Below are positions 28,282 through 53,644 of a DNA stretch of 64,000 nucleotides, one piece after another (within the stretch, counting starts at the first letter, position 1; each line of letters starts with the position of its first letter). The stretch covers positions 1 through 64,000 of the forward strand of contig CM026427.1 of NCBI GenBank assembly GCA_014871385.1, given 5' to 3'. Both the position numbers and the translations under genes were made by a program. The stretch comes from Ceratodon purpureus (lineage: Eukaryota > Streptophyta > Bryopsida > Pseudoditrichales > Ditrichaceae). The notes under the pieces were generated by a model. It was not told where the DNA came from, did not search any database, and saw only the letters and a list, made by a program, of their open reading frames with translations.

Positions 28282-28507
28282 AGAAGGTTGTGAAGGTCTC
28301 AACTGTCAACTAATGAAGTATAAGAGTAAAGATGAATGTCATCTCATAATCATTGATGGTGGACAGTTCTACAAGAAATCAATCTCCAAAATAAGGTTCA
28401 AATCCTTACATGGGAAGAGCCGTTGGCTCGCCCAAGCTGTACTCATCAACTGACCCCGCTCCAATTGGCTAACATCCGCATGTGGATCAAGAGTGCAGCC
28501 GAGGGAA
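28282..28507. other. Intergenic DNA between the retrotransposon and element C
   Basis: Continuation of the target sequence interrupted at 14908. No gene was recognised. It ends where the GTACGTGAG transposon terminus begins. Confidence 0.5.
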
Positions 28508-32700: not shown

Positions 32701-33500
32701 CTTCGCAGTTTCGAGGACGATTGCGGAGGGTGTGGCGGAGGGAGTGCGCTCCACCTGCTCCCTGATCAAATTCTCCGTGTGTTCGACGAAGTCACCGTTC
32801 TCGCCAGACTTCACTGGATGATTGTGAGTTCCGAAGTGAACGCACGCTCTCGTCATGTGAGGTCCTGCAGTGACATAGTAAATCTTTGCAGGACAAAGTG
32901 CAACGCAGGTAGGCGGCGTACTGCAAGATTTACAGACCACGGTGGAACTCTGCGGCGGCTTCGACCCAACTTCAAACAGTTTCTCAGATTTCCCATCCCA
33001 TTCAGTCTCGTTCAGTACCGAAGTCCTATTATCACATGTAAGATACTCACATTTGACATTGTCACAGCGCAGATGGCCAAGGCACGACGAAGAACGGAAT
33101 GTTAGCTTGAGGTCGTTCTGAATATTCGAAGTCGCTGTTCGAGTCCAAGGGTGTCCGTCGTATTTCCTATCCATTCCCCGTAACTGCTTTGCGCCGGAGT
33201 GATGGCCGTGAGCACCTAGGGGTGGGAACTCAAAAATGACATCGCCATTGTACTGAGGAGGAAGGTACTCAACTTCCTGCATTCTAATTGCATCAAAATT
33301 GATGCGAGACAGAACACTCTTTGACCTTTTACGAGCGCTAAGCTTCATGAGGCACTGGACGACACTGTTTGAAGGGGAGACTGCCGGGATAGACGGAGGG
33401 GAGACTGCAGGGGTACATGGAACGGATGACTTCAGGGAGGTTACTACTATTGCAGGAATCTCAACTGCAGTTGGCAATGTCGTGTCCTTCACCTGGACGT
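29711..33500 (-). pseudogene. 5'-truncated SWIM-finger MULE-like transposase (element C, C-terminal part)
   Basis: Exon 1 is about 33500-31807 and exon 2 is 31162-29711 on the minus strand, joined by a 644 bp GT-AG intron at the same position as in the intact homologue of element A. It matches that protein from about residue 170 to the end. A MULE-like catalytic core is visible (CDMQSED, GFMADGAQANWNAVR, CLFHW), and the C-terminus has a SWIM finger (CTCP...CKH). The first ~150-170 residues are missing: upstream sequence is the terminal repeat of element A, read as filler codons to 33597. The rest of the frame has no stops, so truncation is recent. A matching N-terminal part lies at 53645-54092. 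Confidence 0.8.
31225..31690 (+). repeat. 107 bp tandem repeat in the intron of the truncated transposase
   Basis: CCAGCAAGAGTC(C) recurs at about 31231, 31338, 31445 and 31552 (107 bp period), with a fifth degenerate unit to about 31690. The homologous intron in element A is only 106 bp and lacks it, so the array arose or expanded in this copy. Confidence 0.88.
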
Positions 33501-33505
33501 AGCTT

Positions 33506-33575
33506 GTACGTGAGCGGAGAGCGTAGAGCGGAGAGCGGTGAGCGCAGATTTGGAGAGCGGAGAGCACAGAGTGGG
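33506..33575 (+). repeat. Element A left terminal inverted repeat
   Basis: GTACGTGAGCGGAGAGCG followed by AGAGCGG, GAGCGGT and GAGCGC units. The right end carries the same sequence inverted (51814-51856). The repeat is itself internally repetitive (GAGCGG-like hexamers). Confidence 0.85.
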
Positions 33576-33690
33576 GGACAGAACCTAAAAATAGCACTTT
33601 TTTTACTAAAAATAAAATATAAAATTAGAAGATTCGAATATTCTCAGTATATTTTTGGAAAAATACTAATTTTAGTATTTTTATTGACCC

Positions 33691-33702
33691 TATAACCGTG
33701 GA
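33691..33702 (+). promoter_or_regulatory. Subterminal motif TATAACCGTGGA
   Basis: Matches the motifs near the other ends of elements A, B and C (28697-28708, 51749-51760 minus, 54189-54200 plus, with TATTACCGTGGA variants at 28975, 51687-51698 minus and 54251-54262). Candidate transposase-binding site. Confidence 0.5.
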
Positions 33703-33802
33703 ATAATTACAGTGTTTTCATTGAATTTGTAGTTCGTTTTCTTTTTTTTTTGATGATTAATTTTTTAACGTGCACCAATTACTATGCTCCAGCTCCTTCT
33801 AA

Positions 33803-34000
33803 CTAGTTTAGGCATACATTAATTCCCTTTATCTCCTCAAATTTATATGCAAATTACCGCATAAAATGTATTGGTATTAAAGCTCTTAAGAGGGATAAAG
33901 TAACATTTAATATCGTAACAATTTCTTAACATTGTTAGAAATCATCCGCCATGGTCTACATGGTTTATTTCTTTTATTCTTCATATTAACTTCCATTACT
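33803..34000. other. AT-rich subterminal DNA of element A
   Basis: No gene or repeat recognised between the conserved left-end block and the T-rich minisatellite. Confidence 0.5.
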
Positions 34001-34009
34001 CTATCTATC

Positions 34010-34500
34010 TTTCCTTTCCTTTAATTCTCTTTCATTTTCTTTTCTCTTTCATTTTATTCTCTCTTTCATTTTATTTTTTCTTTCATTTTATTTTCTAGTT
34101 CCTTTTATTTTCTCTTTCATTTTATTGTCTCATTCATTTTTTTTTCTCTTTCATTTTATTTTCTCTTTCATTTTATTCTCTCTTTCATTTTATTGTCTCA
34201 TTCATTTTATTTTCTCTTTCATTTTATTTTCTCATTCATTTTATTTTCCTTTTCATTTTATTTTCTCTTTCATTTTATTTTGTCTTTCATTTTATTTTGT
34301 CTTTCATTTTATTCTCTCTTTCATTTTATTTTGTCTTTCATTTTATTCTCTCTTTCATTTTATTGTCTCATTCATTTTATTTTCTCTTTCATTTTATTTT
34401 GTCTTTCATTTTATTCTCTCTTTCATTTTATTGTCTCATTCATTTTATTTTCTCATTCATTTTATTTTGTCTTTCATTTTATTTTCTCTTTCATTTTCTT
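34010..34500 (+). repeat. T-rich minisatellite, ~17 bp unit
   Basis: About 28 copies of TCTTTCATTTTATTTTC with small variants. Three overlapping open frames rich in Phe, Ser and Leu result from the repeat and are not genes. Confidence 0.9.
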
Positions 34501-34716
34501 AGTCGCCTTCATATTATTTTCAACCTTAATATTTATTTTTGCTTTTTTTCCTTTTTGCTTTTATAATTTTTTTTTAATTTTTTTTATTATTTTTTAATTC
34601 TAAAAGCTAAATGACTTCTGCTCAACCCTCATCCTTTTTCATTCAGTTGAGGAAGATGCAACTTCCAAATGAATGAATATCCGATTTTCAAGGGCGCCAA
34701 GCATCTCCTTCACGGA

Positions 34717-34724
34717 TATTTAAG
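34717..34724 (+). promoter_or_regulatory. TATA-like box of the small gene in element A
   Basis: TATTTAAG lies 78 bp before the ATG at 34802. The homologous gene at 52792 has TATATAAG at 52713-52720, the same distance upstream. Confidence 0.5.
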
Positions 34725-34801
34725 TTAGGATTATGGAATGTCTCTTCCTCTTTTCTGTTGGTGTTTTGTGAAGCTCTTTTCCGTACTGCGGGACAGCAGT
34801 T

Positions 34802-35254
34802 ATGGAAGACGTCAGAGATATTGTTGTTTCACTTGCTGACGATGTTTGTCCATTTCAACCATATGTTGAGGTGGAGGACGAAGAAGAGGTGATGGCCAGC
34901 AGCCAAGGGCGTCCTTTAACAACGGATGTTGACGTGCAACCGGATGTTAGAGCTGACCCTCCACGTTCAGAAAATTCGGATGATATCAGAGTGCTGGAGG
35001 AGGACGCAGATGTGCCTTTGCAACCTCATGCATACTCGAAGGTTGGAAAGATCCCAAGGGGAACCTATTCCAGGGAATCAGTGAATCGGAGGCGGGGAGG
35101 TGGGCCATTGCTGAAACGATCATACCAAGGACACGCTCCAAGTGTGGGAACGAAAGTGAATGCGAATGTAGTTTGTCCTGTAGTACAGTCAGAGGTTCGC
35201 AATCCTGCTGATAGTGTAGTGGGCAACCCTAAACGTGTTAGGTTCGAAGATTAG
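34802..35254 (+). CDS. Small transposon-borne protein with HAYSKVG motif (element A)
   Basis: A 150-residue frame from ATG 34802. I do not recognise a family. Residues 1-80 are acidic, including EVEDEEEV. The middle carries HAYSKVGKIPRGTYSR (about residues 78-93), and the C-terminal part is basic (NRRRGGG, NPKRVRFED). The paralogue in the spacer (52792-53247) has HAYAKVGNIKPGTYSR in the same place while the rest has diverged, so this motif is the conserved core. The gene converges on the transposase gene with 254 bp between stops. An AATAAA lies at about 35286. Partner or regulator of the transposase is a guess based on co-occurrence in two elements. Confidence 0.65.
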   Translation: MEDVRDIVVSLADDVCPFQPYVEVEDEEEVMASSQGRPLTTDVDVQPDVRADPPRSENSDDIRVLEEDADVPLQPHAYSKVGKIPRGTYSRESVNRRRGGGPLLKRSYQGHAPSVGTKVNANVVCPVVQSEVRNPADSVVGNPKRVRFED

Positions 35255-35508
35255 GACATCTAATGACAAGTATATGTTTGCTGTAATAAAGGGTACATGT
35301 CAGAGGATACGAGGTATATAGTGCACTTCTTCAAGATAGAATGTATTGAAATAGAATGCAATCAAAGTGAACGACAAAGCCTTTAATATAATGAAAAAGT
35401 CAATACAGCTTCTGAATAGCTGACTTAGTACATGGTATATTACTAAAATCATTCACTACGTGACAAATGGCCATTGTGGAAATGGCAGTTCTAAAGTAGG
35501 AGGGCTAC

Positions 35509-38500
35509 CTACTTCTTCGCCAAGGGGTGACGCAAGATTCCACTCTCTAGGAGAAGCTTGACCTCGTTGAAGCTAAAGGTAGGCGCATGGATGAAAAGCT
35601 CGGCTTCGGGATCACGGTTGCAGACCTTCAAGAGTATGTAGTAAAGGTGCTTACAATACGTGAACTGAGTCCTGCCTTTGAACGTAGTCATCGTCTTCTT
35701 GAATGCTGGGCAAGTGCAACCAGGGTAAGAACTGATGGTAATCTGGTAACGTGTGATGTGAGGAGCGACGCCCGAATCCAGCCCAATGATGCAACCGTGG
35801 CCCGGCTCAGGTATCATGGTGACGGAACGGAGGCGCGCTTTGAGAGACTCGGAGGAGCCCATGGATAGTCGCTGCGCCGGATTGGGACGAGTGGCAGTGC
35901 GCTTCACCATCTTGCCATCTCTCTTGCCTGGGTAGCGGTCAGCGTCTGCGGGGACTGGCACCGAGTTGAGATTCGCAGGGGGCGGGGCAGAGGAGAAGAG
36001 GCGTCTTGGGGAGACCGGCTTTTTAGGCGGAAGTTGAAAGCCTGCTGCTTCGAGGGCAAGAATCTCAGTCAGTTTTAGGTTAGTACCTAGTTTCACTGGC
36101 CAGACCTCTGGAATGGAGGGGAATTCCTGGTCCTTTGAGTAGTGCGCTACCCACTTGCGCTTAGAGCCTTTCACGCAGCGCTCAATATCGTCGGAGCAGA
36201 AGAAGAACTCTGTCTTCTCAACAGTGTTCCTGCGATAGTTAGTCCACAGCCCAGTGTAGGTCGGTGCAGCTGTGCAAAGGGGCCCCCTCACGATTCTCTC
36301 AGTGCACTTCTTCTTCGTTTCAGCTCTCTGGGCCCAGCAGCACTTCGCAGAAAGTTTGTGAAGTCTTGAAATGTGCCACTCCTTCACGTCCACCTTGGTT
36401 TCTTCAACCGCGTTGACATGGCGAATGCCGCCCTTGTTCACAGGTGAAGGTAAAGGGGAATCAACTTCCTGGGCAGGAGGTTGCGCACATTGTACCTCGG
36501 TGTCGTGTTCGGAGTCGTCTTCCACAATGACGGGCATCTGCATAGGGCGAGCCCTGACGGCACGTCTTGGGCCTCTTGGGCGTGAAAAGTTTGTCTTGTC
36601 CGGGCGATGAGACTCCTCGTCAGCTCCGATGGGGACGTCGGCTTTTCGCTTCTGTGAACCGAAGACTTCCGCTCCTGGCATGATAGGCTGACGGGTGCAG
36701 AACTCATCCGCGCCTGGCATATCGAGCATGGGCTTATCGAGCAGTGTAGGATTTCCCCATTTCTTGGCGTTGCGTTCAGCCATCCGGAGTCTGAGTTCCT
36801 TCTTGGACGGTCCTGTTCCGCCGACGTCACCTTTGAGGAATTGGTAGTAGTTAACAACTTGAAGAAAAGCCCGAACGAAATCGTCCACGGTAGCAACGTA
36901 GAGGTCGTTCCCGTTGTTTCCAGAAGCCTGGAGCCACTTGTTGTGAACTGTTTCGGCGAGGTTACAGGTGGGCATCTCTGTGAGTTCTTCTTCCGTGAAT
37001 TTCTGCAATTTTGACAGTAGGTGCCATTAGATTCACGGATTAGAGTTTTGTAGGTTAGGGCTAGGAAACCAGTATGAAAAACATCAAAACAGAGTTCAGA
37101 GATAATACCTCGGTCATGAATCCCCCCCATTGGCGGAAGCGGTGGTGCCAGAATGACAGCCACTGATCGAGTTTGATGAGCCCGCTTTCGCCAACGACCC
37201 CGGTGGATGCCCACCATGCTCGCAACGCGTGGTACAGAGTTTCCGCCTCTGCCATGCTGGTCGCATTCTTGTACTGAGTGCACATCTTCTTGTGCTGTTC
37301 CCAGAGTTCTTCGGGGAAGTGCTTCTGCGTATACGCCACCATGTTCTGAGTCCAGTGGAACAAGCACGACCTCTCCCGGTCCTCCATTGGGTCCTCTTTG
37401 TTGCCATTGCCGTAAAGGATTCGCACTGCATTCCAATTGGCCTGTGCGTTATCCGCCATGAACCCCTTGAAGTTCGGCGCTGCAACGCCATTGATCTCCA
37501 TGACAAGGTTCAGGTTTTTCCAGAAGACGAGCTGGGCGTCCGTGTCCTCAGACTGCATGTCGCAAGTGGCGATTGTCATCACGCGGCAGTACGTGGCGTC
37601 GTACACATGGCACGCCATGGTCGACCAGTCTTTGACGCGTTTTACATGGTCGAACATGATCCATGCGTTCTCCAAGTCGCCACCAGCTTGCATTCGGCTG
37701 ACCAAGTCGACACCACTTCCCGGCCCAACCTCCGACATCTTGAAGAGGAAGACTTTGTCACGCATCGATCCCTGACCAGGAAACCTATTCTCCTGGACAT
37801 ACGCCCACAGACTGTTTCCACGGAGCTTGGTGATACCGTCCATGATTCCGTACCTTTTGAATCTTTTGAAGGTGGCGACTTTGTTGCGGATGTTCGGCGA
37901 CGCCATATCTTTGCATCGATCCAGAACAGGAACCAGCTCCTCCATCGTCAGTTTCCTCGGTGGTGCATCCTCGGGCTGTAGAAGGTAGCTGCCGATGAGG
38001 AGTTTGCTCGCCTCCAGGACAACGGCGCTCTTTGTTGCTTTGTTGTTCATCTCTACCTGCTCTTCTATTAAGCTACTAATCTCTGCTTTAGAGTCTCTGT
38101 AGTCTCCAACTTTCACTGGATGATGATGTGTTCCTATGTGAATACAAGCTCTAGTCTGATTTGGTTTGCCCACAACATAATAAATCTTAGCCTCGCATGT
38201 AGCTACACATGATGGAGGTTCTTTACATACCTTGCACACTAGCGTGGAGTCAGATGGAGGAGGCTGATCCATGAGAAAAGCTTGCAGGGTACAGCCTTCG
38301 AACTCAGTCTCGTTAACCTCGAAGATCTTGGGAACACGCTTCAGGAAGTCACACTCCGGGTTGCTGCAACGCAGCCATCCGACGCAGGTGGAACTTCGAA
38401 AAGAGAGTCCGAAGTCGTTTTTGATGTTTGTTGTGATGGTCTTGGTCCACAAGTGTCCGTCGTATCGTTTGTCCATTCCCTGCATTGACTTGGCGGCGAG

Positions 38501-39187
38501 CTTAGAGGATCCTGCAGCAGCTGGGGGCAACTCAAAAAGAACCGGACCATCAAACTTCGCAGGCAAGTACTCTACTCTCTCGTGTCTAATAGTGGAATAG
38601 TCTATCTTCTTCAAAATGTTTTTGGACCCACGCGTCTTAGCAATCTCTTGAAGGAGCGGAACAATGCTAACTGTGACCTGGGACAATGGAGGAGACACAT
38701 TGGAAGGAGGAGCATCAACGTGGACCTTAGGCACCAACTTCACGGGACTGACTTCGTCATCAGAAGAGAGAGATATGACGGTCGGAGGAGGTTTCTCAAC
38801 ATCTGAAGTCTCGGTACCAGGCTCGACTTTGACCTTGACTTCACGAGGTAAGGGAGTCTGAATTGTGCAAGTAGAAGAGCGACGGGGGGTGAGGATCTCA
38901 GTGGATGCAGCCATCAGAGAATCAGTAAGACCATAGACTCTGTAGGATCCAGGGAGGAGTCTCCACTGCAATATGTTGTTCTCATCTCTCACTGATGGTT
39001 GCCCGAGGGTGTGGGTAACCTCGGCAGTAACGTCATCAAAGATCTCCTCCTCTATACTGATGGAATCCTCACGGAAATGGAATCTGAGACTGAGGCGAAG
39101 AGAGGACACCGTAGCTAGACCATCGTCATCTACGCGAAACCTAAGAGGGATGCCCATGCCTTGGGCGTACAGACAGACCATCCCCAT
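35509..39187 (-). CDS. SWIM zinc-finger MULE-like transposase (element A, intact)
   Basis: Exon 1 is 39187-37109 and exon 2 is 37002-35509 on the minus strand, joined by a 106 bp GT-AG intron in phase 0, giving 1,190 residues. The frame is open to 39247 but that codon is TTG; the first ATG is 39187, and alignment with the copy at 53645 supports a start there or two codons later. Residues about 1-110 form a conserved N-terminal domain (REDSISIEEEIFDD). The middle holds a MULE-like core (CDMQSEDTDAQ, GFMADNAQANWNAVRILYG, CLFHW, FWHHRFRQWGGFM). Near residue 1122-1145 is a SWIM finger, C-x-C then C-x-H (CTCPAFK, YCKHLYY). It would bind the element's ends and catalyse excision and insertion. FAR1-like transcription factors share this architecture, but location inside terminal repeats favours a transposase. 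Confidence 0.8.
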
Positions 39188-39823
39188 GTTCGCAGGGAAC
39201 TCAGTGATACTAGTGGAAGAAGGGAGGAGAGTGAGTGTATCAGCCAAGCGCTATCGCGAGAGCAAAGTGAGAGGAATGATGCATCGTTGATGATCATTTT
39301 ATTCAGGTTGGAATGTCCATGTGAATAGTTGGGGAATGATTCTGTCAGTTAGGTAACGAATGTATGATTTAAGAGAGGCGGCGCTAACTAATTACAGTGC
39401 CACTTTTTGCAGGTCTAAGGTTATGAGGTAAGGTCTATTGAACTCTACTTTAAAATTTGAATCGTAGAGCGGATTCTATTTGACATGATGTATTATAAGA
39501 TTAGAATGAGCCGTCATTTTAATTCTACATTTAATACAATGAATATAAAAAGGAGCATGATTGAAGTGCTAGATTCAAATCTTTCAATTTATAGTGCACT
39601 TAGATATATTCCTTATAATTAAAGGTTGATATTTTAAATCTAGCTTCAATTATAGAATTGTTAAATATATTCTTAATATAAAGTGGGCAGACACTGTGTA
39701 AGTTGTTGAGATTGTATATCAACTTAGGGTTCTAGGAGAATAGTTGTACGTGAGAGGTATTTAAGCAGGGAGAAGTTTTCATGAAAGTCTTTTTGTGAGA
39801 GAGTCCTTCCCTTGGTTAGACAC
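39188..39823. promoter_or_regulatory. Divergent promoter region between transposase and methyltransferase-like gene
   Basis: About 640 bp of AT-rich DNA between two divergent starts. TATTTAAG at 39758-39765 lies 58 bp before the plus-strand ATG. Just upstream, TTGTACGTGAG at 39744-39754 repeats the outermost 11 bases of the element A left terminus. This could let transposase bind its own promoter, or may be chance. Confidence 0.45.
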
Positions 39824-42800
39824 ATGAAGCAGAGTGGAGGGCCATCTCCCTCCACTTATGTTACTCCTAAACAGAGAAGGAAACCTGGCCGCACTGATTT
39901 TACAAATAGAAGAGCTAGAAAGAGGAGAGCATCACGTAAGCAGGTAGATTCTAAAAGTGACCATTTGAGTGCACCCGTGAAACGGAGAGGAGGAGATCTG
40001 CCTGTAGCTTTGAAGTTTTGTAGCCTTCGCAAACTCATTCTCGACTCAATAGAAGAGGGGAAAGAGGAATTATTAGAGGACAAGGACGTCCAGAATCACG
40101 ACCACGAACAGGTTGTACATTTAAGTAGAGGAGCACGTGAGGCCATGACGGAAGAATTAGTCTTCAACTGTAGTCAGAAACTAGAGTCTCCGCAACCATC
40201 GTTTTCATTCAATGAGTTCTCGACAGGGGAGGCTGATTCTCAATCAGATTTTTATTTAAACCCCGACAAGGTAAGTATTTATATTCTCTCTAGAACCAAG
40301 GTAATGGGAATTATTTGTGTAATCTAGTATATTTGTGAAAGGTTTGTAATTGAGTAGTTTGAATAAAGAATGTGAGGTTCGCTCTAAGTCTATTTGAGAG
40401 GGGCCGCGGCAATTTTCACACTCGAATACTAAGTCTCAGGGAGAGGGCCGCGGCACTTGACACAGGGGAATCGTAGATTTATTTGTCTGCTATTTTTATA
40501 CAGAGCATCGAGAGGATGAGAGGGGTCGAGGATCAATGTGGTGGCTCCGCTCTTGGAGAATGCACGGAGTTTGAGCACCTCCGACTCGAGGCGAGGCGAG
40601 CAAGGCTGGGCATTCTCGACGCAGGCGAGGGAGGGAGTGCAATGGCTGCGCAGGGAGAGCAGAATGTGGGCGGCCGCGGCCAGGGGGATGATGTGCAGGT
40701 CGCTGGAGGGGTGGAGGTCGATGGAGGCTTGGAGCTCGATGGAGGCGTGGAGCTCCAGCAGCAGCCCGGAGTGCAGCACGAGGACCAAATCGAGGGCGAC
40801 CACGACGACGAGCTCGACTCTGAAGACGAGCACGACGAGGTCAGAATCTATGGGTGTCGGTTTGATGGGGTTGACGGGGACGTGGGGTTAATGAGGGTTA
40901 TGGGTTCCTGCTGATGTTGATTGGAATCTCGCATTGGAAGCTCGGGGAGTGCGGGTGCTTGTGAAATTGTGTGTTGGGGGATTGTGGATTGCGAGAATTC
41001 GAGGAGTCGCAGTTCGGTTGGGTGGGTTTTGGGATTATCATGTTTGTGGGTAGTGGGCTTGCGGGTATCTGCTTGTTCGGGAAGCTTGGGGCTTACTGCT
41101 TGTTGTATGTGCTCTGCATTTGGATTGAAGAGCCGCGGCTGAGGAGGCTAGGAGCCTCCCATGAGGCTTGCGGCTCACATTTTTTTTTTATTTCCATTTC
41201 GTGGCAAGCACCCTGGTGCCTGCTTTCGGAGCAGACACCAGTGCTGCGAGCCCTCTAACTGAGCCCCGGCCGAGGAGGCTCTATGCCTCCGAGGAGGCTT
41301 GGGGCTTACTGCTTGTTGTATGTGCTCTGCATTTGGATTGAAGAGCCGCGGCTGAGGAGGCTAGGAGCCTCCCATGAGGCTTGCGGCTCACAGTGCTGCG
41401 AGCCCTCTAACTGAGCCCCGGCCGAGGAGGCTCTATGCCTCCGAGGAGGCTTGGGGCTTACTGCTTGTTGTATGTGCTCTGCATTTGGATTGAAGAGCCG
41501 CGGCTGAGGAGGCTAGGAGCCTCCCATGAGGCTTGCGGCTCACATTTTTTTTTTATTTCCATTTCGTGGCAAGCAGCCTGGTGCCTGCTTTCGGAGCAGA
41601 CACCAGTGCTGCGAGCCCTCTAACTGAGCCCCGGCCGAGGAGGCTCTATGCCTCCGAGGAGGCTTGGGGCTTACTGCTTGTTGTATGTGCTCTGCATTTG
41701 GATTGAAGAGCCGCGGCTGAGGAGGCTAAGAGCCTCCCATGAGGCTTGCGGCTCACATTTTTTTTTTATTTCCATTTCGTGGCAAGCAGCCTGGTGCCTG
41801 CTTTCGGAGCAGACACCAGTGCTGCGAGCCCTCTAACTGAGCCCCGGCCGAGGAGGCTCTATGCCTCCGAGGAGGCTTGGGGCTTACTGCTTGTTGTATG
41901 TGCTCTGCATTTGGATTGAAGAGCCGCGGCTGAGGAGGCTAGGAGCCTCCCATGAGGCTTGCGGCTCACAGTGCTGCGAGCCCTCTAACTGAGCCCCGGC
42001 CGAGGAGGCTCTATGCCTCCGAGGAGGCTTGGGGCTTACTGCTTGTTGTATGTGCTCTGCATTTGGATTGAAGAGCCGCGGCTGAGGAGGCTAGGAGCCT
42101 CCCATGAGGCTTGCGGCTCACATTTTTTTTTTATTTCCATTTCGTGGCAAGCAGCCTGGTGCCTGCTTTCGGAGCAGACACCAGTGCTGCGAGCCCTCTA
42201 ACTGAGCCCCGGCCGAGGAGGCTCTATGCCTCCGAGGAGGCTTGGGGCTTACTGCTTGTTGTATGTGCTCTGCATTTGGATTGAAGAGCCGCGGCTGAGG
42301 AGGCTAGGAGCCTCCCATGAGGCTTGCGGCTCACATTTTTTTTTTATTTCCATTTCGTGGCAAGCAGCCTGGTGCCTGCTTTCGGAGCAGACACCAGTGC
42401 TGCGAGCCCTCTAACTGAGCCCCGGCCGAGGAGGCTCTATGCCTCCGAGGAGGCTTGGGGCTTACTGCTTGTTGTATGTGCTCTGCATTTGGATTGAAGA
42501 GCCGCGGCTGAGGAGGCTAGGAGCCTCCCATGAGGCTTGCGGCTCACATTTTTTTTTTATTTCCATTTCGTGGCAAGCAGCCTGGTGCCTGCTTTCGGAG
42601 CAGACACCAGTGCTGCGAGCCCTCTAACTGAGCCCCGGCCGAGGAGGCTCTATGCCTCCGAGGAAGCTTGGGGCTTACTGCTTGTTGTATGTGCTCTGCA
42701 TTTGGATTGAAGAGCCGCGGCTGAGGAGGCTATGAGCCTCCCATGAGGCTTGCGGCTCACATTTTTTTTTTATTTCCATTTCGTGGCAAGCAGCCTGGTG

Positions 42801-45800
42801 CCTGCTTTCGGAGCAGACACCAGTGCTGCGAGCCCTCTAACTGAGCCCCGGCCGAGGAGGCTCTATGCCTCCGAGGAGGCTTGGGGCTTACTGCTTGTTG
42901 TATGTGCTCTGCATTTGGATTGAAGAGCCGCGGCTGAGGAGGCTATGAGCCTCCCATGAGGCTTGCGGCTCACATTTTTTTTTTATTTCCATTTCGTGGC
43001 AAGCAGCCTGGTGCCTGCTTTCGGAGCAGACACCAGTGCTGCGAGCCCTCTAACTGAGCCCCGGCCGAGGAGGCTCTATGCCTCCGAGGAGGCTTGGGGC
43101 TTACTGCTTGTTGTATGTGCTCTGCATTTGGATTGAAGAGCCGCGGCTGAGGAGGCTAGGAGCCTCCCATGAGGCTTGCGGCTCACATTTTTTTTTTATT
43201 TCCATTTCGTGGCAAGCAGCCTGGTGCCTGCTTTCGGAGCAGACACCAGTGCTGCGAGCCCTCTAACTGAGCCCCGGCCGAGGAGGCTCTATGCCTCCGA
43301 GGAGGCTTGGGGCTTACTGCTTGTTGTATGTGCTCTGCATTTGGATTGAAGAGCCGCGGCTGAGAAGGCTAGGAGCCTCCCATGAGGCTTGCGGCTCACA
43401 TTTTTTTTTTATTTCCATTTCGTGGCAAGCAGCCTGGTGCCTGCTTTCGGAGCAGACACCAGTGCTGCGAGCCCTCTAACTGAGCCCCGGCCGAGGAGGC
43501 TCTTTGCCTCCGAGGAAGCTTGGGGCTTACTGCTTGTTGTATGTGCTCTGCATTTGGATTGAAGAGCCGCGGCTGAGGAGGCTAGGAGCCTCCCATGAGG
43601 CTTGCGGCTCACATTTGTTTTTTATTTCCATTTCGTGGCAAGCAGCCTGGTGCCTGCTTTCGGAGCAGACACCAGTGCTGCGAGCCCTCTAACTGAGCCC
43701 CGGCCGAGGAGGCTCTATGCCTCCGAGGACGCTTGGGGCTTACTGCTTGTTGTATGTGCTCTGCATTTGGATTGAAGAGCCGCGGCTGAGGAGGCTATGA
43801 GCCTCCCATGAGGCTTGCGGCTCACATTTTTTTTTTATTTCCATTTCGTGGCAAGCAGCCTGGTGCCTGCTTTCGGAGCAGACACCAGTGCTGCGAGCCC
43901 TCTAACTGAGCCCCGGCCGAGGAGGCTCTATGCCTCCGAGGAGGCTTGGGGCTTACTGCTTGTTGTATGTGCTCTGCATTTGGATTGAAGAGCCGCGGCT
44001 GAGAAGGCTAGGAGCCTCCCATGAGGCTTGCGGCTCACATTTTTTTTTTATTTCCATTTCGTGGCAAGCAGCCTGGTGCCTGCTTTCGGAGCAGACACCA
44101 GTGCTGCGAGCCCTCTAACTGAGCCCCGGCCGAGGAGGCTCTTTGCCTCCGAGGAAGCTTGGGGCTTACTGCTTGTTGTATGTGCTCTGCATTTGGATTG
44201 AAGAGCCGCGGCTGAGGAGGCTAGGAGCCTCCCATGAGGCTTGCGGCTCACATTTGTTTTTTATTTCCATTTCGTGGCAAGCAGCCTGGTGCCTGCTTTC
44301 GGAGCAGACACCAGTGCTGCGAGCCCTCTAACTGAGCCCCGGCCGAGGAGGCTCTTTGCCTCCGAGGAAGCTTGGGGCTTACTGCTTGTTGTATGTGCTC
44401 TGCATTTGGATTGAAGAGCCGCGGCTGAGGAGGCTAGGAGCCTCCCATGAGGCTTGCGGCTCACATTTTTTTTTTATTTCCATTTCGTGGCAAGCAGCCT
44501 GGTGCCTGCTTTCGGAGCAGACACCAGTGCTGCGAGCCCTCTAACTGAGCCCCGGCCGAGGAGGCTCTTTGCCTCCGAGGAAGCTTGGGGCTTACTGCTT
44601 GTTGTATGTGCTCTGCATTTGGATTGAAGAGCCGCGGCTGAGGAGGCTAGGAGCCTCCCATGAGGCTTGCGGCTCACATTTGTTTTTTATTTCCATTTCG
44701 TGGCAAGCAGCCTGGTGCCTGCTTTCGGAGCAGACACCAGTGCTGCGAGCCCTCTAACTGAGCCCCGGCCGAGGAGGCTCTATGCCTCCGAGGAGGCTTG
44801 GGGCTTACTGCTTGTTGTATGTGCTCTGCATTTGGATTGAAGAGCCGCGGCTGAGGAGGCTAGGAGCCTCCCATGAGGCTTGCGGCTCACATTTTTTTTT
44901 TATTTCCATTTCGTGGCAAGCAGCCTGGTGCCTGCTTTCGGAGCAGACACCAGTGCTGCGAGCCCTCTAACTGAGCCCCGGCCGAGGAGGCTCTATGCCT
45001 CCGAGGAGGCTTGGGGCTTACTGCTTGTTGTATGTGCTCTGCATTTGGATTGAAGAGCCGCGGCTGAGGAGGCTAGGAGCCTCCCATGAGGCTTGCGGCT
45101 CACATTTTTTTTTTATTTCCATTTCGTGGCAAGCAGCCTGGTGCCTGCTTTCGGAGCAGACACCAGTGCTGCGAGCCCTCTAACTGAGCCCCGGCCGAGG
45201 AGGCTCTATGCCTCCGAGGAAGCTTGGGGCTTACTGCTTGTTGTATGTGCTCTGCATTTGGATTGAAGAGCCGCGGCTGAGGAGGCTATGAGCCTCCCAT
45301 GAGGCTTGCGGCTCACATTTTTTTTTAGGATGTCGTGCTTGTATATATGTGTGATCATTTGTGCATATAGATGAGAACCTATCTACAGGGGTGAGAATAA
45401 TTCTAATCATTGACATTAGTGCCTTTTTTGTGAATTACAGGATACTTCTCAGCAGAACAACGGGACCGAGAGTGAAAGCAAGGGGCCTGAGGAGACTGAG
45501 GTATTGTTTCTGATGTTTTCATTTTTGAAATTCACATGTTCTATTATCCTAAATAATTGAAGTTGAGCATTTGAAAGATCTTTCAAATGATTAGAAAGCT
45601 CATATTTCCTCATTTGCCTTTTACTTGCAGGTAGGCTCTGATGCTCCCGACATGTCTGTCAATTCTCCAATCTCTGTCATAAACCTTTCAGACCTGTCAG
45701 ACCCAGAGGATGAGCGTCTTTGTACCTGTGATTTAGCCATTCCTTTGGGTGTAGACACTGGACCTTTCGAGGTCCAGTCACCCCAGTACATGCCTACTTC

Positions 45801-48800
45801 GCCTGTATTTGAGCCCACCTCTCCTGTGTACATGCCCACCTCTCCAGTGTACATGCCCTCCTCGCCACGTCTTGGCACACCGCCGTCTTCGCCTAATCCC
45901 CCAGTTTCACCTTTGGTGTTGAGGAGGCCAGCCCATGTAGTGTTTGCCCTTCCGGCAATACTGCCCAGCGCTTGCCGTCAGACCAGGCGATTTTGGAGGA
46001 GGCGCCATCATTGGAATAGTAGAGAGGCTAGACAGTACTATGGAAGAGCTCCTCGTAGAGTGGCACGGCCTTGATTCTTGGTGCTATAGATGAAATTTGA
46101 GATGTTTTTTTTTACTCTTTCATTTATGAGAAAAGCTCTATGTGATTGGTAAATTCCATTTCTCAGTATCTACATTATTGTGTTTGATTGTTCATTTCCA
46201 TTGCTTACGGCAGGTACCCGAGTTGACGCAAACACAGGACGTGTTGCCATCATCATCAAAGCCTTTGGACTTGAAAGACGCTGTTGAAGGGGAACTGCTT
46301 CATCGAACACAGCATAAAGTTGACTCCATCAACGTCATCAATGCCGTTCGTATTCAGCCCTTGAGGAAGTCTCGCCTGCTGGTCCCATTGTGTAGAATGG
46401 TCGCAATGGCAAAAGTCAGACCGGTTGGCGAAATGGGCGTGCAACATCTGGAGAGGGAGTTCGTGAAGGGCTACAGAGATGGGGACCGCGTGATGTACAT
46501 TTCCATGTTCAACACTGAAGAGGTGTCAATGGATGTCACGGAGGAAGTGAAGGCAAAGTGGAGCCCGTGCTGGCGTAGGGCTAACGAAGCCTTCGAAGCC
46601 GACCTAGGTTTAGACGATGACCTCAATCAATTCAGTGGCAAAATGTTTTTTGTATGGGAAGGTAACCATCGCCTTTCAGCTTGGTTACGGCACATCAACA
46701 AGCATCATGCCGACGACCCAGCTTGGCACATCTCCGTGCATTGCATCATATTGGACCCCCGCGGCCAAGTGGGCAATCTTCTCCATGCCATGCACGACAT
46801 CAACTGGTAAGAATTTTGATGGAACATTTTTTCAATTTTGATTTCGGATCATCCTTCTATTATGATGTGTTTTCTAAACTGTTTATTTTGTCCACAGGTC
46901 TACTGAGAATGACCATGTGAAGAGTAATCTTCCAGCGAAGTTATTCCGCATCCGCTCTTTCGGTGTCATGAAGTTAGAAGAATTCAAAGATCTTCTAAGC
47001 CCCGAAGAGTTTGAAATCTGTGTGCAGAATAAACACGCAAAGGACCGATGGTTCACCTTGACAACAAAGGTTTTCATTGCGTTCCTATACCGAGTAAGAA
47101 TTTATACCATGACTCAGCAAGTACATTCGTCTGATCCATATACTTTAAGTAATGCATTTCAAGTGGTTTGTACATTGATTTTAATATAATGTATATCCAT
47201 GTACAGAGAGAGATTGCAGTCGCCTCGGATCAGGCCGCAAGAGCCTACAAGGAGAACACGCCAATAGACGATCAATCTGGATCTGGAGTGTGGGATGCGA
47301 TGACGACAGCGTCAAACAACTACATTGAGGCCGTCAAGAAGAAAGACTTCACCAAGTACTTGGCCATTGCGAATCCCAAAAATGGTGACGACTTCCTTGC
47401 CGAGGTGAATCCTTAATCACTTCATCTTAAGCTATTTTGTTCTTATCTCCTATGATATCTTCATTTCATAATGCTAACAGTTGTGTTCTAAATGCAGATT
47501 AACCGCCACTTCAGCGATCTCAACAAACCTGAGATGACATTGGACAAGCTGCAGAAGATTGTGCCGGCGGCAGTGGAACCCAAGTACAAAGCTCGTTGGT
47601 TGAGGTGGTGGAACTCCTCTCCGACTTCAAGGCAGTCTTACAGGTTCCCACCACCGGAGTTCAAGGAAGCTGACCTCGACCGTTGGCTAAACAGGGCTAC
47701 ATTCTGGGCAGGGGTATGCTCCCTTATTTCCAAAACTGATAATGTCTTTGTCATTGTATCACTTTGATAGTTGTAGTCTAATTCTCCTGACTGTCTCTTG
47801 TAGTTGGAAGAAGCGGTCATCCAAGAGTTCGAGAACATGTGTAAGTCTGAGGAGCTGGACATCAATTGGAATGCCTCCCCTGATGTTCAGCGACCAGGCG
47901 ATTACGTGGAGAGCTGGCGTATTCTGCTTTGGGACAGAGCATTCCCGGCATTCCTTGGATCCAAGGCGAAGAAGACTTTTGATAAGAAGTCGATTTTCAC
48001 GAAATTCCCTGGAACGGTAGATGTTGTCAAGCGAGTCATTTACCGGTATGAATCTTTTCTCAAACATGTGTGCATTTCGAATCCTGCGTTTCGTCTCTCC
48101 CACATACTAAGTATTTTAAAATTGGCCCACATTAGGTACTTCAAGAGAGAGCTTCTTCCCAAAGGAGCCGTCACTGTCCACCAACTCCCGAAGTACTTTC
48201 CTTTATGGATCCAGAGAGGCACGGACGAGTGTATCTACTCTGCTCAGCAATTGAAGAGGTACAAAGCTCCCCACTTGGAGGCAGGATGTTGGTATCTAGA
48301 TTGCCTCCGTGGTTTTACAGTCGATTCTGAGGCCGATGTGAAATCATCACTTGATCTTCGAGCGCCAGTAGTCGAAGACTCCAACGACGGTTCTGAAGAA
48401 GACGAAGAACATCAAAGTCAATCATCTGCACCTCAACCGAAGAAAGGGAGAGCTCGGCGACTGCGAACACTGGGTTCAAAGTCACAGACCTCACAAGATA
48501 CTGGGGCTGAGTCTTCCTCACCAGGGAAGGAGACGGGCAACGCTTCTCCAACTGTAGACGTCCCAATGCCAACGTCGAACACAGCGAATGCGCCTTCATC
48601 CATTGGTGCTTCTGCAGTCACGCGAAGTCTCATTGAGCAGAGGAAGGCCAAACTATATCCTCAACCAACTTCTTCCGCTGGAGCTTCGATTTCCACACAT
48701 GTTTCCGTCTTCAACTCATCCGTGGATTCCTTGTTACGGCGAAATAGGAGACAGGAGAGCAAAGGTGGCGACCCGGATTGGATCAAGACTCAAGACTTTA

Positions 48801-50211
48801 TTCGCAAGGTTTGTTCATGTATTTCGACATTTAATGGATTCTGCCACCTCTACTCACTATGTAGTTACTAACTCTCCTTTCTTGTTTGCTCAAGTTTGGA
48901 GCAGGCCGCGAAAACGAAGTTCCGGACCGGTGCAAAGAAGAGAACCATCTGGGAGTCGACTTGATCATTGCCGACATTCCTGAGAATCTTCCCGTCCCAT
49001 CCGTTTCCGTTCCTCCCACGAGTATTCCGCCTTGGAACTCTCGCTACAGGGATTATTTGTACGACATCTTCCATTTTGCAGATGATTTCCTGCAGAAAGA
49101 TGGTGCCCTCTGCCTCATCTACAACACTGATCAGAAGCTGGCTAAGGATATCGAGGAAGAAGCTGCTGCTGGTGGATACGTGCTGTTCAAGGACTGGTGG
49201 GGTGTCAATGTCCTCGGCCTGACTTCTCCTACGAACCCCGAGAACTTGGTACTTTTCCTAAACATGCCCTTCTCTTCGCTTTCTAATAACCCTTCCGCTT
49301 CATTTTACTCACTACTTGTGCTTGACTGCAGACTATGCGATTCTGGATTCGCGTCTACATTCGTAGTGGCAGTACTTTCTCCTTCCAGACGAAGAAGGAA
49401 GACTTGATACATGGGCTCCTCAACATTACCAAGAGTGATGCCATTTTCAACTTCACCGATGCGGAATCTCAGCTCATGAATGGGGAGGTGCCGTGGAGAG
49501 GCCCAAGGGAGAAATCCCCTGAGATGATGCAGAGCATCATTGAGGAGCTGTCCAAGCCCGGCGACATAGTTGTTGACTGGAATGCTGGGACAGGTAACTC
49601 TTCTTACATATCTCTGCTTCATTTTTCCTCTCGTTTTTTCCAGAGTTTCTCATTTCTTTGTTTCTCTTCGAGTTTCAGGGGCCTCCATCAAGGCCGCCCA
49701 GGCTGTTGGTCGTCACATTCTCGCTTTTGAGGAGGACGAAGCCATATTCAACGCCCTTCTCAAACCATCAGCCATGGGTCCTCCTAAACATCCAAGGCCG
49801 GCAGCAGCAGGCGAAGCGCCTCCTAAGAGAGCAAGACCTTCCAAGTGGTGTAAGTCTTTCATTTTTTGTTCATATTATCCAATCGTTACTTCTCTTTCTA
49901 GCTTTACGTACTCTATCTAACCACAGTCGGTTCTCTATTGCAGAGTAGTTTCAGCAACACCGCCACGTGGGCCAAGAGCAGTGTCCACTCCATCGTGGCG
50001 TCTTCATTCCAGCCCGATTCAGCCTTTCATACTTCCGGATTACGCAGAGGGCTTAGCACAGGCGTTTCAATCTGGAGCCCTGACATATGTTCCTAGTCGG
50101 CCAACTACTTTTGATCCCAGGGCCCTTCTATTTGTCGATGATGAGGCGGTAGAAGGAGATTCAGAGTCATCTAGTTCTGAGAGTGGAAGTAGCGATGGTA
50201 GCATTTTCTGA
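39824..50211 (+). CDS. ParB-like plus N4/N6 DNA-methyltransferase-like protein, 13 exons (element A)
   Basis: Hand-built exons: 39824-40270, 40504-40839, 45441-45500, 46214-46806, 46898-47093, 47207-47404, 47498-47713, 47804-48045, 48136-48808, 48895-49248, 49332-49593, 49679-49849 and 49955-50211. All use GT-AG and keep one frame of 1,334 residues. Residues 1-261 are basic then acidic and low-complexity. Around 431 is VWEGNHRLSAW, like the DGNHR motif of ParB/Srx domains. Residues ~990-1225 resemble a beta-class adenine/cytosine methyltransferase: catalytic region first (DLIIADIPE, where DPPY is expected), then a SAM-binding loop (DIVVDWNAGTG, then GRHILAFEEDE). ParB-methylase fusions are common in bacteria and phages. 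The altered DIPE motif suggests weak or lost catalysis. The N-terminal exons and the exact last acceptor are least certain; mid exons are firm. Intron 2 is 4.6 kb. Confidence 0.65.
41081..45329 (+). repeat. 213 bp satellite array in intron 2 of the methyltransferase-like gene
   Basis: About 20 head-to-tail units, mostly 213 bp, two of them 152 bp (units starting near 41283 and 41861) that lack a 61 bp segment. Each unit contains CTGGTGCCTGCT-TTCGG-AGCAGACACCAG arms able to form a hairpin with a UUCG-type loop, and a GAGCCGC...GCGGCTC outer stem enclosing GAGGCTAGGAGCCTC. Repeating 62-codon frames are translations of the repeat, not genes. It is flanked by the exon ending at 40839 and the exon starting at 45441. 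Confidence 0.93.
45631..46074 (+). CDS. Alternative terminal exon with RNA polymerase II CTD-like heptads
   Basis: Preceded by an acceptor (CTTGCAG, ends 45630) and in phase 0 with the exon ending at 45500. It is open for 147 codons to TGA at 46074. It encodes four near-perfect heptads, YMPTSPV, FEPTSPV, YMPTSPV and YMPSSPR, close to the Pol II consensus YSPTSPS, then a Pro/Ser-rich stretch and an Arg-rich tail. The next exon (46214) also needs a phase-0 donor, so the 45500 donor can pair with either acceptor. That would give a short protein ending in the heptads or the long ParB/methyltransferase form. A weak internal donor in this exon cannot be excluded. Confidence 0.55.
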   Translation, partial: VGSDAPDMSVNSPISVINLSDLSDPEDERLCTCDLAIPLGVDTGPFEVQSPQYMPTSPVFEPTSPVYMPTSPVYMPSSPRLGTPPSSPNPPVSPLVLRRPAHVVFALPAILPSACRQTRRFWRRRHHWNSREARQYYGRAPRRVARP

Positions 50212-50725
50212 GTTTGAAGGAGGCTTCGGTCTTTCATTGTTTTCATTTGCTTTGATTTGATTTAATTGGAGTTCTTTGGGTAATCCTTCGTCTACTCTAC
50301 TACCCTAAACCTAAACTTGTTATGATTCTCATTTCCATTTTGTCTCCGTGTTTGTAAAGGATGAAATGTCACAACTGTAATGCTCAAAATATAATATGAA
50401 GAATGAAATGTTACAAAAGAAAGGCTCAAATATAATATTGTGCTGTTAATTATATTTTACTCATTCAAAATCCCATATTTCCATAGGCATGTTATCTATT
50501 CTTGACTTGGTGTACATCTTGGTTTCTGCTACTCCATTATTCTACACGAACTCTGAAATATTCTACGAACTTCTAAGACCATTTCTTTTAGTTGGTTTCG
50601 AGTTGTCTTATTCCTAGAATCGTCTATATTATCTAAAACCATCGTGCTGGAATACTCGTATGTAGATCCGATAAGGGACCAAATCTAAAGGAATGTATTC
50701 AAACACCCCACTAGACTTCACAGTA
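50212..50725. other. Convergent intergenic region
   Basis: AT-rich 3' flanks of the methyltransferase-like gene (plus) and the 123-residue gene (minus). Nothing else was recognised. Confidence 0.55.
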
Positions 50726-51097
50726 CTAATCCTTCGAAGGATATACAGTCCAACTCTTGTCCATATCAAACCAGCAAGTTTCGCCATCCGATATGATCAC
50801 TTCGGGCAGCTGAACAACTGGATTCTCATCGACGTTCGATAGCAAGGGATACGGGATTAGGGACAACTCCATAATACGGAGAAGCTCATTCGTACAAAGC
50901 ACTGTCCAACGCCATTCACCTTCACCAACATGGAGGCTTCCGATGTGCCTAAACGGTGGCAGGTCCATGCCTCGTTCCCTGGCGCGCTCCACCTCCAACA
51001 GCCACGGCCGCAGCTCCTCATAACTCGCCGGTGCCTTTGGGGGCAAACCTACAGCCGCTCTCGTCCTCCTTGATCTCGCATTACACACCTTCGGCAT
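50726..51097 (-). CDS. 123-residue protein of unknown function (element A)
   Basis: ATG at 51097 (the frame is open four codons further but starts GTG). I recognise no family. It has a basic N-terminus (NARSRRTR), a helical Glu/Arg-rich segment near residues 25-45 and a Trp-containing middle (GEGEWRWTVL). The C-terminus reads GETCWFDMDKSWTVYP. It lies between the methyltransferase-like gene and the right terminal repeat. The element B copy at 54852-55223 encodes the same protein. Confidence 0.55.
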   Translation of the reverse strand: MPKVCNARSRRTRAAVGLPPKAPASYEELRPWLLEVERARERGMDLPPFRHIGSLHVGEGEWRWTVLCTNELLRIMELSLIPYPLLSNVDENPVVQLPEVIISDGETCWFDMDKSWTVYPSKD

Positions 51098-51813
51098 CGC
51101 GCAACACACTAAATTGTTGTAGTCTTAAAACGTTCCACGCAAGCCTACAGATTGACCCCCCCGAACTCCATCGCTACCTTCGCATATAGCACAGACTGCC
51201 AAGGACTGTATGACTATCCTAATACGCCACCTAGAGACAAGCTCAAGAAACCAAGAGTGACCTCCTTCTCTGGAACCCAGCTTACCAAGTGTTGTTTCAT
51301 GCTGAAAATCTCCTACTTCTATCACTCAAATTCAGATGCTTCGCTGCCTAGGAAGAGAGAGTAATCTTCGATGAAGACAAGGACTCTGACAAGGTATATC
51401 TTGGTTTCAGCAGTCAAGATATTATACACGAATTTTGAAATATTCCAGGAAGTTTTCAAACCTTGCCTCCTTTATGTTCTGTGAAATTTGTTTCTTTCCT
51501 TGTGCATTTACATAATCCTATGAAAGAATTAATTGTTTGATCTAGAACTCAACGCCTGATCATTGTAGCTTGCCTACACCCATGACAAATCTAAAGGAAT
51601 GTATGCATGACGTCATCATGACATCAGCCCTAATTTGTATCTTAGAGAACAAACGTAATAAATTCTTACCAGAGATAACCCTAAATTCCACGGTAATATA
51701 CTCTTTTTCTAAAAAAAGTGTCAAAATTAAGCCTTAATTTAGTAATTCTCCACGGTTATAGGGTCTACTTTGCTTTTGAAAATTTTCCTAATTGTCAATT
51801 CTGTGCTCTCCAT
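51098..51813. other. Right subterminal region of element A
   Basis: No gene recognised. On the minus strand it holds TATTACCGTGGA (51698-51687) and TATAACCGTGGA (51760-51749), matching motifs at the left end. The single A/G difference found between the palindrome arms lies near 51105. Confidence 0.55.
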
Positions 51814-51856
51814 TCTGCGCTCACCGCTCTCCGCTCTACGCTCTCCGCTCACGTAC
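51814..51856 (-). repeat. Element A right terminal inverted repeat
   Basis: Read on the minus strand it starts GTACGTGAGCGGAGAGCG and matches the left terminus at 33506 for about 43 bases before diverging. Confidence 0.85.
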
Positions 51857-51989
51857 GAACTTTCCCCTCGATGACTATGTACTTGACAACTCTGAAGTAA
51901 CCCATACTCATGAGGACAGTGATTTTTATTGTCTACCAGAGAACGAAGTTGACAAGCGTATGCATGGTTCCCATTGAATTGGAGCATAC

Positions 51990-52268
51990 CTTACTGCGAG
52001 GATTCTGGATGGGCGTTCCGTCCTCTTCCACATAGTTCAGAGTTCGCGGTGAAACATCGTCTCGTCCAATCGAAGCGCCAGGCCGTCTAGTTTGTCCTCC
52101 GACGGCCTGACTAGAATTCCCTCCCTTCTTCCCCATCGCTGAACGCAAATTGTACGGGGATTCAGTGACCTCCGGAGCCGCTAACCTCCTCTTCCTCCGA
52201 AGACGCCTCCGTTTCTGTACAGACCTGGATAACTCTGCCTGCGCCTTCGAAGCAGACCGTGTGATCAT
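51990..52268 (-). pseudogene. Orphan first exon, possible methyltransferase-gene exon 1 of element C
   Basis: ATG at 52268; 93 codons to a GTATGC donor at 51989, phase 0, as in exon 1 of the element A methyltransferase-like gene. Both encode a strongly basic segment (here QKRRRLRRKRRLAAPE) and end in Asn-Pro followed by Lys. Similarity is compositional rather than clearly alignable. No downstream exons exist before the palindrome arm begins. Confidence 0.4.
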
Positions 52269-52712
52269 CTCTGATTCTAATGGGCCATCCGAAGCATTAC
52301 GTAATGGCTTGAAAAAATAGCTGACGAGGGATCTATGAACCCCATAATATGTTGATTCTTTAAAATGTCTTAAAGCGTGTCATTATGAGCTAGACCGCGA
52401 TTTATAGTTCTCACTGACATTTGGGCCCTCCATAAGATATTTGGACGCTAATAGTTGTCTTAATGAATGAGCCGCCGTTGGCTGTACGTGGAATACATGA
52501 AATTAGTTACCTGATAATATTCCAATATCTACTCACCAGGACGTAGCATTTGTTCTGCAGCACAAGTTAGTTCACCTTTCATACTGTCACGTATTAACTG
52601 CATGTAAACAACCATGCGAAGACTGCGCCGTCCCTGATTCATTCTTTGCATTAATATAGCCCTCCTAGACACGTGTTTTAACATGAGCCGAGGCTGCGTT
52701 CATTGTACTCCT

Positions 52713-52720
52713 ATATAAGA
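52713..52720 (+). promoter_or_regulatory. TATA box of the spacer small gene
   Basis: TATATAAG, 72 bp upstream of the ATG at 52792. Placement matches the TATTTAAG box of the paralogue in element A. Confidence 0.55.
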
Positions 52721-52791
52721 AATGTCACTGGCTCCTCCATTTCCAGACGCATTTCCAGACTGAGATAATCTTAGTAGAGGCTTCACTGGAG

Positions 52792-53247: not shown

Positions 53248-53644
53248 CAGAGTAGTGGGATTAAAGACCTTGGAGTACGTGTACCTGAATGTGATCGGAA
53301 TGGTTCTGCTGTAATGAAAGCGTTTCATTGTAATAAAAAATCTATTAGTACTAAAAGTGGCCGTCATCTTCCACTCATGTCTGTAATATCCCAGCCTATA
53401 TGACAATGAATATTAGGGCGGGCATGTTCTCTGGACTTGTACTAATCCATGATTAATTAGTTCATATAAGGTTATTCGCTCCAGAAATTATCCTAACTAT
53501 ACGTCTTAATGTTAACCGTCTCCTGAATCATGTACTCTTGTGTGAGTTTAGAAGAATGTCGCAGCGAGAAGGGTACGTAATATTCTGTGATCATCTCCTC
53601 CGCCGTGTTTGCTTTTTTCACATCTCGCTCTTCGTGTTCACAGT

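Follow-up and report, generated by a model that had tools for sequence, protein, structure and literature searches.

Why should a transposon carry a gene that joins a ParB-like domain to a DNA methyltransferase-like domain? The question is posed by a locus in the moss Ceratodon purpureus, in the first 64,000 nucleotides of contig CM026427.1 (C7:1-64000, hereafter the window), where an 18.4-kb element copy that we call B1 (33495..51867, plus strand) encodes a minus-strand transposase, a plus-strand ParB/methyltransferase-like gene, a 150-amino-acid open reading frame (ORF), and a second spliced gene (gene 1). The answer that we favor, and consider probable, is that this is a MULE-like transposon whose ParB-like protein recognizes palindromes in the element's own introns, either to act against silencing or as a mark of self. 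ParB-methyltransferase genes are already known from algal transposons, as documented in the accessible part of one report (PMC12477816), and what appear to be new are the moss MULE-like setting and the palindrome cassette. A literature search by title and abstract, with most subscription papers outside its coverage, returned no such gene from a moss or a MULE-type element and no palindrome arrays accompanying such a gene. The first-pass annotation of this DNA knew of no described MULE-type transposon with cargo of this kind; that stands at the level of titles and abstracts, with the correction that algal DNA transposons of other superfamilies do carry it.

The element is a DNA transposon. For 19 further copies from the 362.5-Mb genome searched (151 contigs), we compared the left flank and 10 kb of sequence from the right part; in three of them (L015, L022, and L024) the right end lies outside those 10 kb, leaving 16 right flanks in view. 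The flanks diverge at 33495, where B1 starts with GGACGTAGCTT, and at 51867, where it stops with AACTTTCCCC, so that the true ends fall slightly outside the boundaries first proposed for the element (33506-51856). The inverted termini are real, with 33501-33548 and 51814-51861 being 96% complementary over 48 bp, and together with 6 outer bases they make up a left terminal inverted repeat containing GAGCGGA sub-repeats (33495..33548, plus strand) and a right one (51814..51867, minus strand). The check that the first-pass annotation had proposed, aligning ends and target duplications of further copies, gave perfect 10-bp duplications in all 16 of the copies testable at both ends (19 tried). The exact left 23-mer occurs 236 times in the genome and the exact right 22-mer 292 times, against 0 for backwards-read controls, and the inverted termini are therefore not due to chance. 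On contigs C1-C4, 29 of 52 exact left ends have an exact right end on the same strand within 60 kb, and 20 of these 29 pairs are spaced 14.9-19.1 kb apart (2 are shorter and 7 longer). When the best 61 of 2783 first-look transposase candidates were scored, all shared 97-100% amino acid identity, with at least one internal stop in 6 of the 61. Given these near-identical transposases, the shared exact ends, and the duplications, the family looks recently active.

Assignment to a superfamily rests on the target duplications, the ends, and motifs recognized by eye. The transposase gene (35509..39247, minus strand) consists of 728- and 499-amino-acid reading frames with MULE-like D...D...CxxH motifs in the lineage alignment and a CxC...CxH SWIM-like finger. 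The finger, which agrees with the earlier description as a SWIM-finger transposase, was read by eye, and no Pfam model of any kind matched up to an E-value of 10, the MULE DDE, SWIM, and KDZ models included, and a transposase profile found no convincing relative in the PDB (one spidroin match, E 0.034, was taken as chance). Terminal inverted repeats of MULEs vary in length and are missing from some groups, and a SWIM zinc finger occurs in many groups. MULE target duplications are 8 to 11 bp long according to the accessible text of PMC6446971. The duplications here are 10 bp in the 16 of 16 testable copies and in the exchanged B1/B2 pair described below, and the terminal repeats (48 bp at 96%, plus the 6 outer bases) also agree with a MULE-like element. 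Sola transposons make 4-bp target duplications, and Sola membership was rejected on the 10-bp length found here.

The cargo gene runs on the plus strand from 46214 to about 50211, its nine exons encoding a minimum of 968 amino acids with the start codon further upstream. A ParB-like exon with a GNHRLSAW motif (46214..46806) is followed by linker exons 2-6 (46898..48808; 46898-47093, 47207-47404, 47498-47713, 47804-48045, and 48136-48808) and by beta-class methyltransferase-like exons (48895..50211; 48895-49248, 49332-49593, 49679-49849, and a last exon to about 50211 whose acceptor is uncertain). The first-pass description of a spliced gene joining these two domains is borne out by a Pfam N6_N4_Mtase match (33.7 bits, cut-off 26.7), by alignment to CcrM, and by a predicted ParB fold. 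The comparison with ParB and methylase families that had been suggested as a check was positive for the latter family and matched no ParB sequence model: the ParB-like exon has no Pfam ParB match, DndB matched one relative below the cut-off (E 0.018), and the sole PDB match of the alignment profile, ribosomal eL24 (E 0.017), was taken as chance. At the level of structure, the window exon alone gave a predicted local distance difference test score of 34; a prediction made with 86 sequences for the relative P0001, which shares 41% identity with the window exon, yielded the ParB N-domain fold, and the N-terminus of the cargo protein is accordingly predicted to fold like ParB. The second match of this model in a viral structure library was a protein annotated as a DNA methylase of phage Vincenzo.

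This gene moves with the element. Some part of it is present in 22 of the 22 copies examined, namely all 20 of the stretches L009-L028 (L009 covering B2, and L024 showing only 251 bp of it) plus L057 and L058, which represent the right parts of the two shortest exact-end pairs. None of the 22 lacks the gene entirely (one is without the methyltransferase exons), and instead of the single-copy gene at a conserved locus that the first-pass annotation had raised as an alternative, we find a multi-copy one. Genome searches gave at least 32 matches with the Pfam methyltransferase family (150 of 773 candidates scored) and at least 163 with a ParB-domain relative (149 of 2996 candidates scored). In the L022 stretch, which has two copies, the ParB/methyltransferase-like gene region occurs twice, about 5.6 kb apart.

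The ratio of nonsynonymous to synonymous divergence (omega, dN/dS) against the window is 0.117-0.539 over 19 rows, with the maximum at a synonymous divergence (dS) of 0.022, and exons 1-6 are under purifying selection. A captured passenger without a role for the transposon is very improbable, and a single-copy host gene or passenger was ruled out by copy number, target duplications, and dN/dS. The gene can decay, as in the short derivative L057 (C3:312540-323391), in which the methyltransferase exons are gone while the palindrome array, the ParB exon, and a portion of the linker persist, and in L023, where parts of exons 5-6 are missing and one stop is present (in L016, exon 7 is one base short); a passenger role is, however, already contradicted by the low omega, the intact frames, and the presence of the gene in diverged lineages. 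Among the latter is element A, the older related transposon adjoining B1, whose transposase is 52-53% identical to that of the B copies. Its own ParB/methyltransferase-like gene lies beyond B2, at about C7:78480-82240 (stretch L056), with a ParB exon 39% identical to the B version over 167 amino acids and further exons in order; the motif IV exon was not found in stretch L056. That A carries its own version matches what is predicted if the gene is part of the transposon's basic layout, and we judge the protein to be probably a core component of the element and no chance passenger. L057 offers a natural test of whether the methyltransferase domain is needed for mobility.

Divergence is distributed unevenly along the gene. 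In five copies compared region by region with the window (L012, L014, L016, L018, and L025), the ParB exon has a dS of 1.6-2.2 (omega 0.08-0.12) and exons 2-6 a dS of 1.2-1.4 (omega 0.14-0.16), versus a dS of only 0.06-0.14 (omega 0.26-0.43) in exons 7-9. L023 deviates, with a dS of 0.72 in exons 7-9, and the higher dS of L022 and L022b against the window reflects coverage limited to the 5' part of the gene. By comparison of coordinates, the transposases of the copies behind L014, L016, L017, L019, L022, L025, and L026 share 98-99% identity with that of the window. A diverged ParB and linker region combined with a uniform transposase and uniform exons 7-9 therefore amounts, over the three lineages compared, to a diverged cassette in a near-uniform chassis.

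What the cassette might recognize is suggested by a tandem array located in the intron that precedes the final gene 1 exon in all copies with that intron in view. The array palindromes are invariant amid diverged repeats, and they differ between ParB lineages. Seven L022-type array units (from L015, L018 twice, L022, L024, and L057 twice) are mostly 68-77% alike in pairwise comparison, and all seven share CCTACTGTCGT-N2-ACGACAGTAGG. Counted over array consensus units with the palindrome site masked during rotation, every one of the 22 arm columns is invariant, compared with 31 of the 217 columns outside the arms, where no invariant run exceeds 3. Over the part in view, these copies have ParB exons sharing 96-100% identity with that of L022. 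Perfect 24-mers number 5 in L015, 9 in L018, 10 in L022, 39 in L024, and 9 in L057, where there are approximately 5, 10, 9.5, 41, and 10 array units, respectively. The copy behind L017 (L062) carries the same site, and the 22-base core of this lineage is found at 1875 genomic sites (control, 0).

The window lineage, comprising the window and the copies behind L020, L021, and L013 (L059, L060, and L061), has a different site, GGAGGCT-N3-AGCCTCC, with 19 perfect palindromes in the 213-bp tandem array of the large gene 1 intron of B1 (41026..45463). Each of nine units of this lineage holds the 6-bp arms GGAGGC...GCCTCC at two positions, without any change in the arms but with varying centers, while the L059 and L060 arrays are just 73-74% identical to the window array. 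Other blocks of this unit are conserved as well (141 of 215 columns), and one conserved 19-bp block belongs to a 25-bp inverted repeat in L059 and L060. The 7-bp-arm form has 512 genomic sites (control, 0), and the five clusters among the matches listed all fall inside element copies by coordinates. Further sites are CCCTACTGTC-N6-GACAGTAGGG in the copy behind L016 (L063), TTCGGATCCGAA in common between L023 and L058 (ParB exons 98.8% identical), and CCTCGG-N2-CCGAGG in element A, where it occurs 38 times across three arrays of L056. The same palindrome, in 2 perfect and 3 one-mismatch copies, is carried by an array (31223-31683) between the two reading frames of the element A transposase, and the repeats of the two places are related (about 73%). 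No repeated palindrome was seen in L052-L054.

The palindromes could instead act as RNA hairpins, or promote array expansion by being prone to recombination, without being protein sites. Hairpins with 3- to 4-nucleotide loops are possible, and constant arms with variable loops would also suit RNA; we nevertheless consider this improbable, as the arm sequence itself is conserved, an informal comparison of the seven units showed no compensatory change, and the arms differ between ParB lineages.

Under the mechanism that we propose instead, the ParB-like domain would bind the palindromes, of which the introns of the element hold about 5-41 repeats, and might load there and spread as bacterial ParB does from parS. 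Binding would bring the methyltransferase-like domain, and perhaps the gene 1 product with its resemblance to the carboxy-terminal domain (CTD) of RNA polymerase II, onto element DNA, and as an outcome the element would escape silencing or be marked as self. The ParB domain, linker, and array would be exchanged between elements as a cassette, with little variation in transposase, termini, and methyltransferase exons across the three lineages compared, resulting in elements with different address labels, comparable to the VANC proteins and repeat targets of Arabidopsis VANDAL MULEs. Binding, spreading, cassette exchange as a process, anti-silencing, and any methylation are steps that we infer; a self-recognition system would be expected to show a ParB-like protein, clustered palindromes in the element that encodes it, and a change of both together. 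The chances are roughly even that the system goes further and forms an exchangeable eukaryotic ParB-parS-like cassette on a constant chassis, in which each lineage would have a private address and silencing would be escaped or redirected without cross-talk.

Two points qualify the evidence for recognition of the arrays by the ParB-like protein. The 24-bp site counts for more than the 6-bp-arm sites of L023/L058 and of element A, shuffled units yielding short inverted repeats at about 0.4-1.0 per unit, and the joint change of ParB and array could result simply from linkage. A functional cassette is the better reading because dS changes sharply between exons 6 and 7 while the transposase is constant, an argument that falls short of proof. 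The protein might also be a transposition accessory that, by attaching to arrays or ends, helps to build or control the transposition complex and does not act on chromatin, in keeping with a gene under selection that adjoins the transposase in a recently copied element. This too seems quite unlikely, given that the window palindromes are intronic, 6-11 kb from the right end, with the 7-bp-arm form nowhere else in the window, and that ParB and array change while transposase and termini are constant. As for the first-pass suggestion that the cargo could protect the element's ends, the evidence points to recognition of the intronic palindrome arrays over the ends specifically. Countering of host silencing by the cargo is plausible, and is suggested by the analogy with VANC, which is directed to short, tandemly repeated motifs that also occur in introns.

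The methyltransferase-like half is more ambiguous and, judged from sequence, may methylate, bind S-adenosylmethionine as a switch, or merely bind DNA. Seven representatives combined in a profile align along CcrM (6pbd, E 2.4e-7) and with DpnA (3.2e-9), and motif IV precedes motif I (DWNAGTG) as in beta-class enzymes. In this alignment, DPPY stands opposite a degenerate motif IV, which is DIPE in 19 of 20 aligned rows, all those with the motif in view, and DVPE (L050 and L051), DQPF (L052 and L053), or DQPY (L049) elsewhere. The catalytic pattern (D/N/S)PP(Y/F/W) was absent, DPPY occurring in none of the lineages seen. The aromatic residue of motif IV normally stacks the flipped base. With DIPE in place of DPPY, the DNA-modifying activity suggested in the first-pass annotation cannot be assumed; catalysis by the DIPE domain is doubtful, and an active enzyme is more conceivable in the DQPY relatives than in the DIPE lineage. 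L050 and L051 also have a long uninterrupted frame of 567-569 amino acids across linker and methyltransferase, and so fewer introns.

Active self-methylation, in which a still catalytic motif IV would place adenine or N4-cytosine methylation in the element itself as a self tag or anti-silencing mark, is on balance rather unlikely. The alignment along CcrM speaks for it, as do the D-x-P of motif IV (aspartate and second proline invariant in 7 of 7 representatives), the retention of DQPYN in one lineage, the near-uniformity of the methyltransferase exons over three cassette lineages, and the proposal of such an activity for the algal protein in the accessible part of PMC12477816; a DIPE without the aromatic residue, and the lack of any lineage seen with DPPY, speak against it. 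A look for traces of methylation through CG transitions yielded small numbers.

Among known systems, the closest by description is Sola1-1_Ec32 of the brown alga Ectocarpus, a giant DNA transposon of the Sola-1 group which, according to the accessible text, encodes a 1104-amino-acid ParB-methyltransferase accessory protein on the strand opposite the transposase (PMC12477816). It shares with the moss gene (at least 968 amino acids) a ParB-like and an N4/N6 DNA methyltransferase-like domain, and differs from the moss element, which is MULE-like; features of the latter are the degenerate motif IV, the intronic palindrome arrays, and the cassette pattern. The algal proteins were proposed to bind and modify their own element, with no binding site named in the accessible part of that report. 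The VANDAL elements of Arabidopsis likewise encode an accessory protein, VANC, and related elements differ in both the protein and its repeats; the VANC targets, short motifs often repeated in tandem and also present in introns, have a counterpart here as an arrangement, while the VANC binding motif and demethylating effect were shown experimentally, anything of the kind in the moss element being putative (PMC5735166, accessible part). Fungal DNA transposons with a TET/JBP dioxygenase also have DNA-modification cargo, mostly intact frames, and a proposed anti-silencing role, in another enzyme, other hosts, and other superfamilies, and the accessible text mentions no recognition-site array (PMC12730594).

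The resemblance to bacterial and phage ParB-parS systems and to phage ParB-methylase proteins lies in the predicted ParB/Srx-like fold and the clustered palindromic sites; the moss gene, by contrast, is eukaryotic, spliced, and within a transposon, and no partner ParA was noticed. To our knowledge, the moss palindromes differ from the parS sequence, and VANC is unrelated to ParB-methyltransferase proteins. CcrM-type beta-class methyltransferases share the motif order IV-I and align with the moss profile, with DPPY in place of DIPE. If our reading is correct, a bacterial partition-type module has been reused for selfish DNA in a land plant, the task of VANC in Arabidopsis MULEs would have a second and unrelated solution here, and such elements would be a source of new sequence-specific DNA-binding domains. 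What the moss sequence provides is a set of candidate sites, several protein lineages whose predicted sites differ, and a domain swap that amounts to a natural experiment.

The gene family may be present in other genomes too. A search with the full-length cargo protein gave no match among 7991 candidates scored, while lineage profiles gave 340 ParB-domain matches (120 listed), including the C. purpureus protein M758_9G115400 (P0062), and 40 methyltransferase-domain matches in the protein database. The relatives P0013, P0014, P0024, and P0136 are on contigs of up to 1.08 Mb, and P0013 is at most 61% identical to this genome among the matches listed.

Gene 1 (39824..46074, plus strand) has exons assigned by eye at 39824-40270, 40504-40839, 45441-45500, and 45631-46074, the last encoding YMPTSPV-type heptads (window 45787-45867), which recall the YSPTSPS repeat of the RNA polymerase II CTD. 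The heptads are present in the two copies of the window and in 12 of the loci compared (L009 overlaps the window), and the end point of gene 1 is the same within a few codons in 6 other copies translated; judged from sequence, this exon is a possible CTD mimic inside a transposon. The 150-amino-acid ORF lies at 34802..35254 (plus strand), and a 56%-identical relative adjoins a decayed transposase in L055; the L055/L050 neighborhood contains remains of transposase and cargo gene in an unexpected orientation and was not counted as an intact pair. A 17-bp tandem array of 29 copies (34025..34521) is found near the left end of B1.

The window also holds a second copy, B2, overlooked by the first-pass annotation, in opposite orientation to B1 (54082..64000, minus strand, continuing to C7:73093) and 99.76% identical to it across 9.9 kb. 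The 10-bp duplications are exchanged between the two, with TCCTTCACCT at the left of B1 (33485..33494) paired with the reverse complement at 54072-54081 beside the right end of B2, and TCGATGACTA at the right of B1 (51868..51877) paired with C7:73094-73103 beside the left end of B2. This fits two independent insertions into element A followed by inversion of the intervening 2.2 kb, which would leave such a pattern. The inverted segment (51868..54081) contains the N-terminal part of the element A transposase and a small ORF, and the left end of A, with its interrupted transposase (29723-33490), lies on the other side of B1 (28503..33494, minus strand). The B1/B2 pair (33485-54081) records an inversion by recombination between transposons. 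Elsewhere in the window, positions 1-6300 consist of a subtelomeric repeat, about 2,096 bp long and interspersed with blocks of CCCTAAA, and a 3.66-kb direct duplication with 99.86% identity is found at 14908-18563 and 24620-28276.

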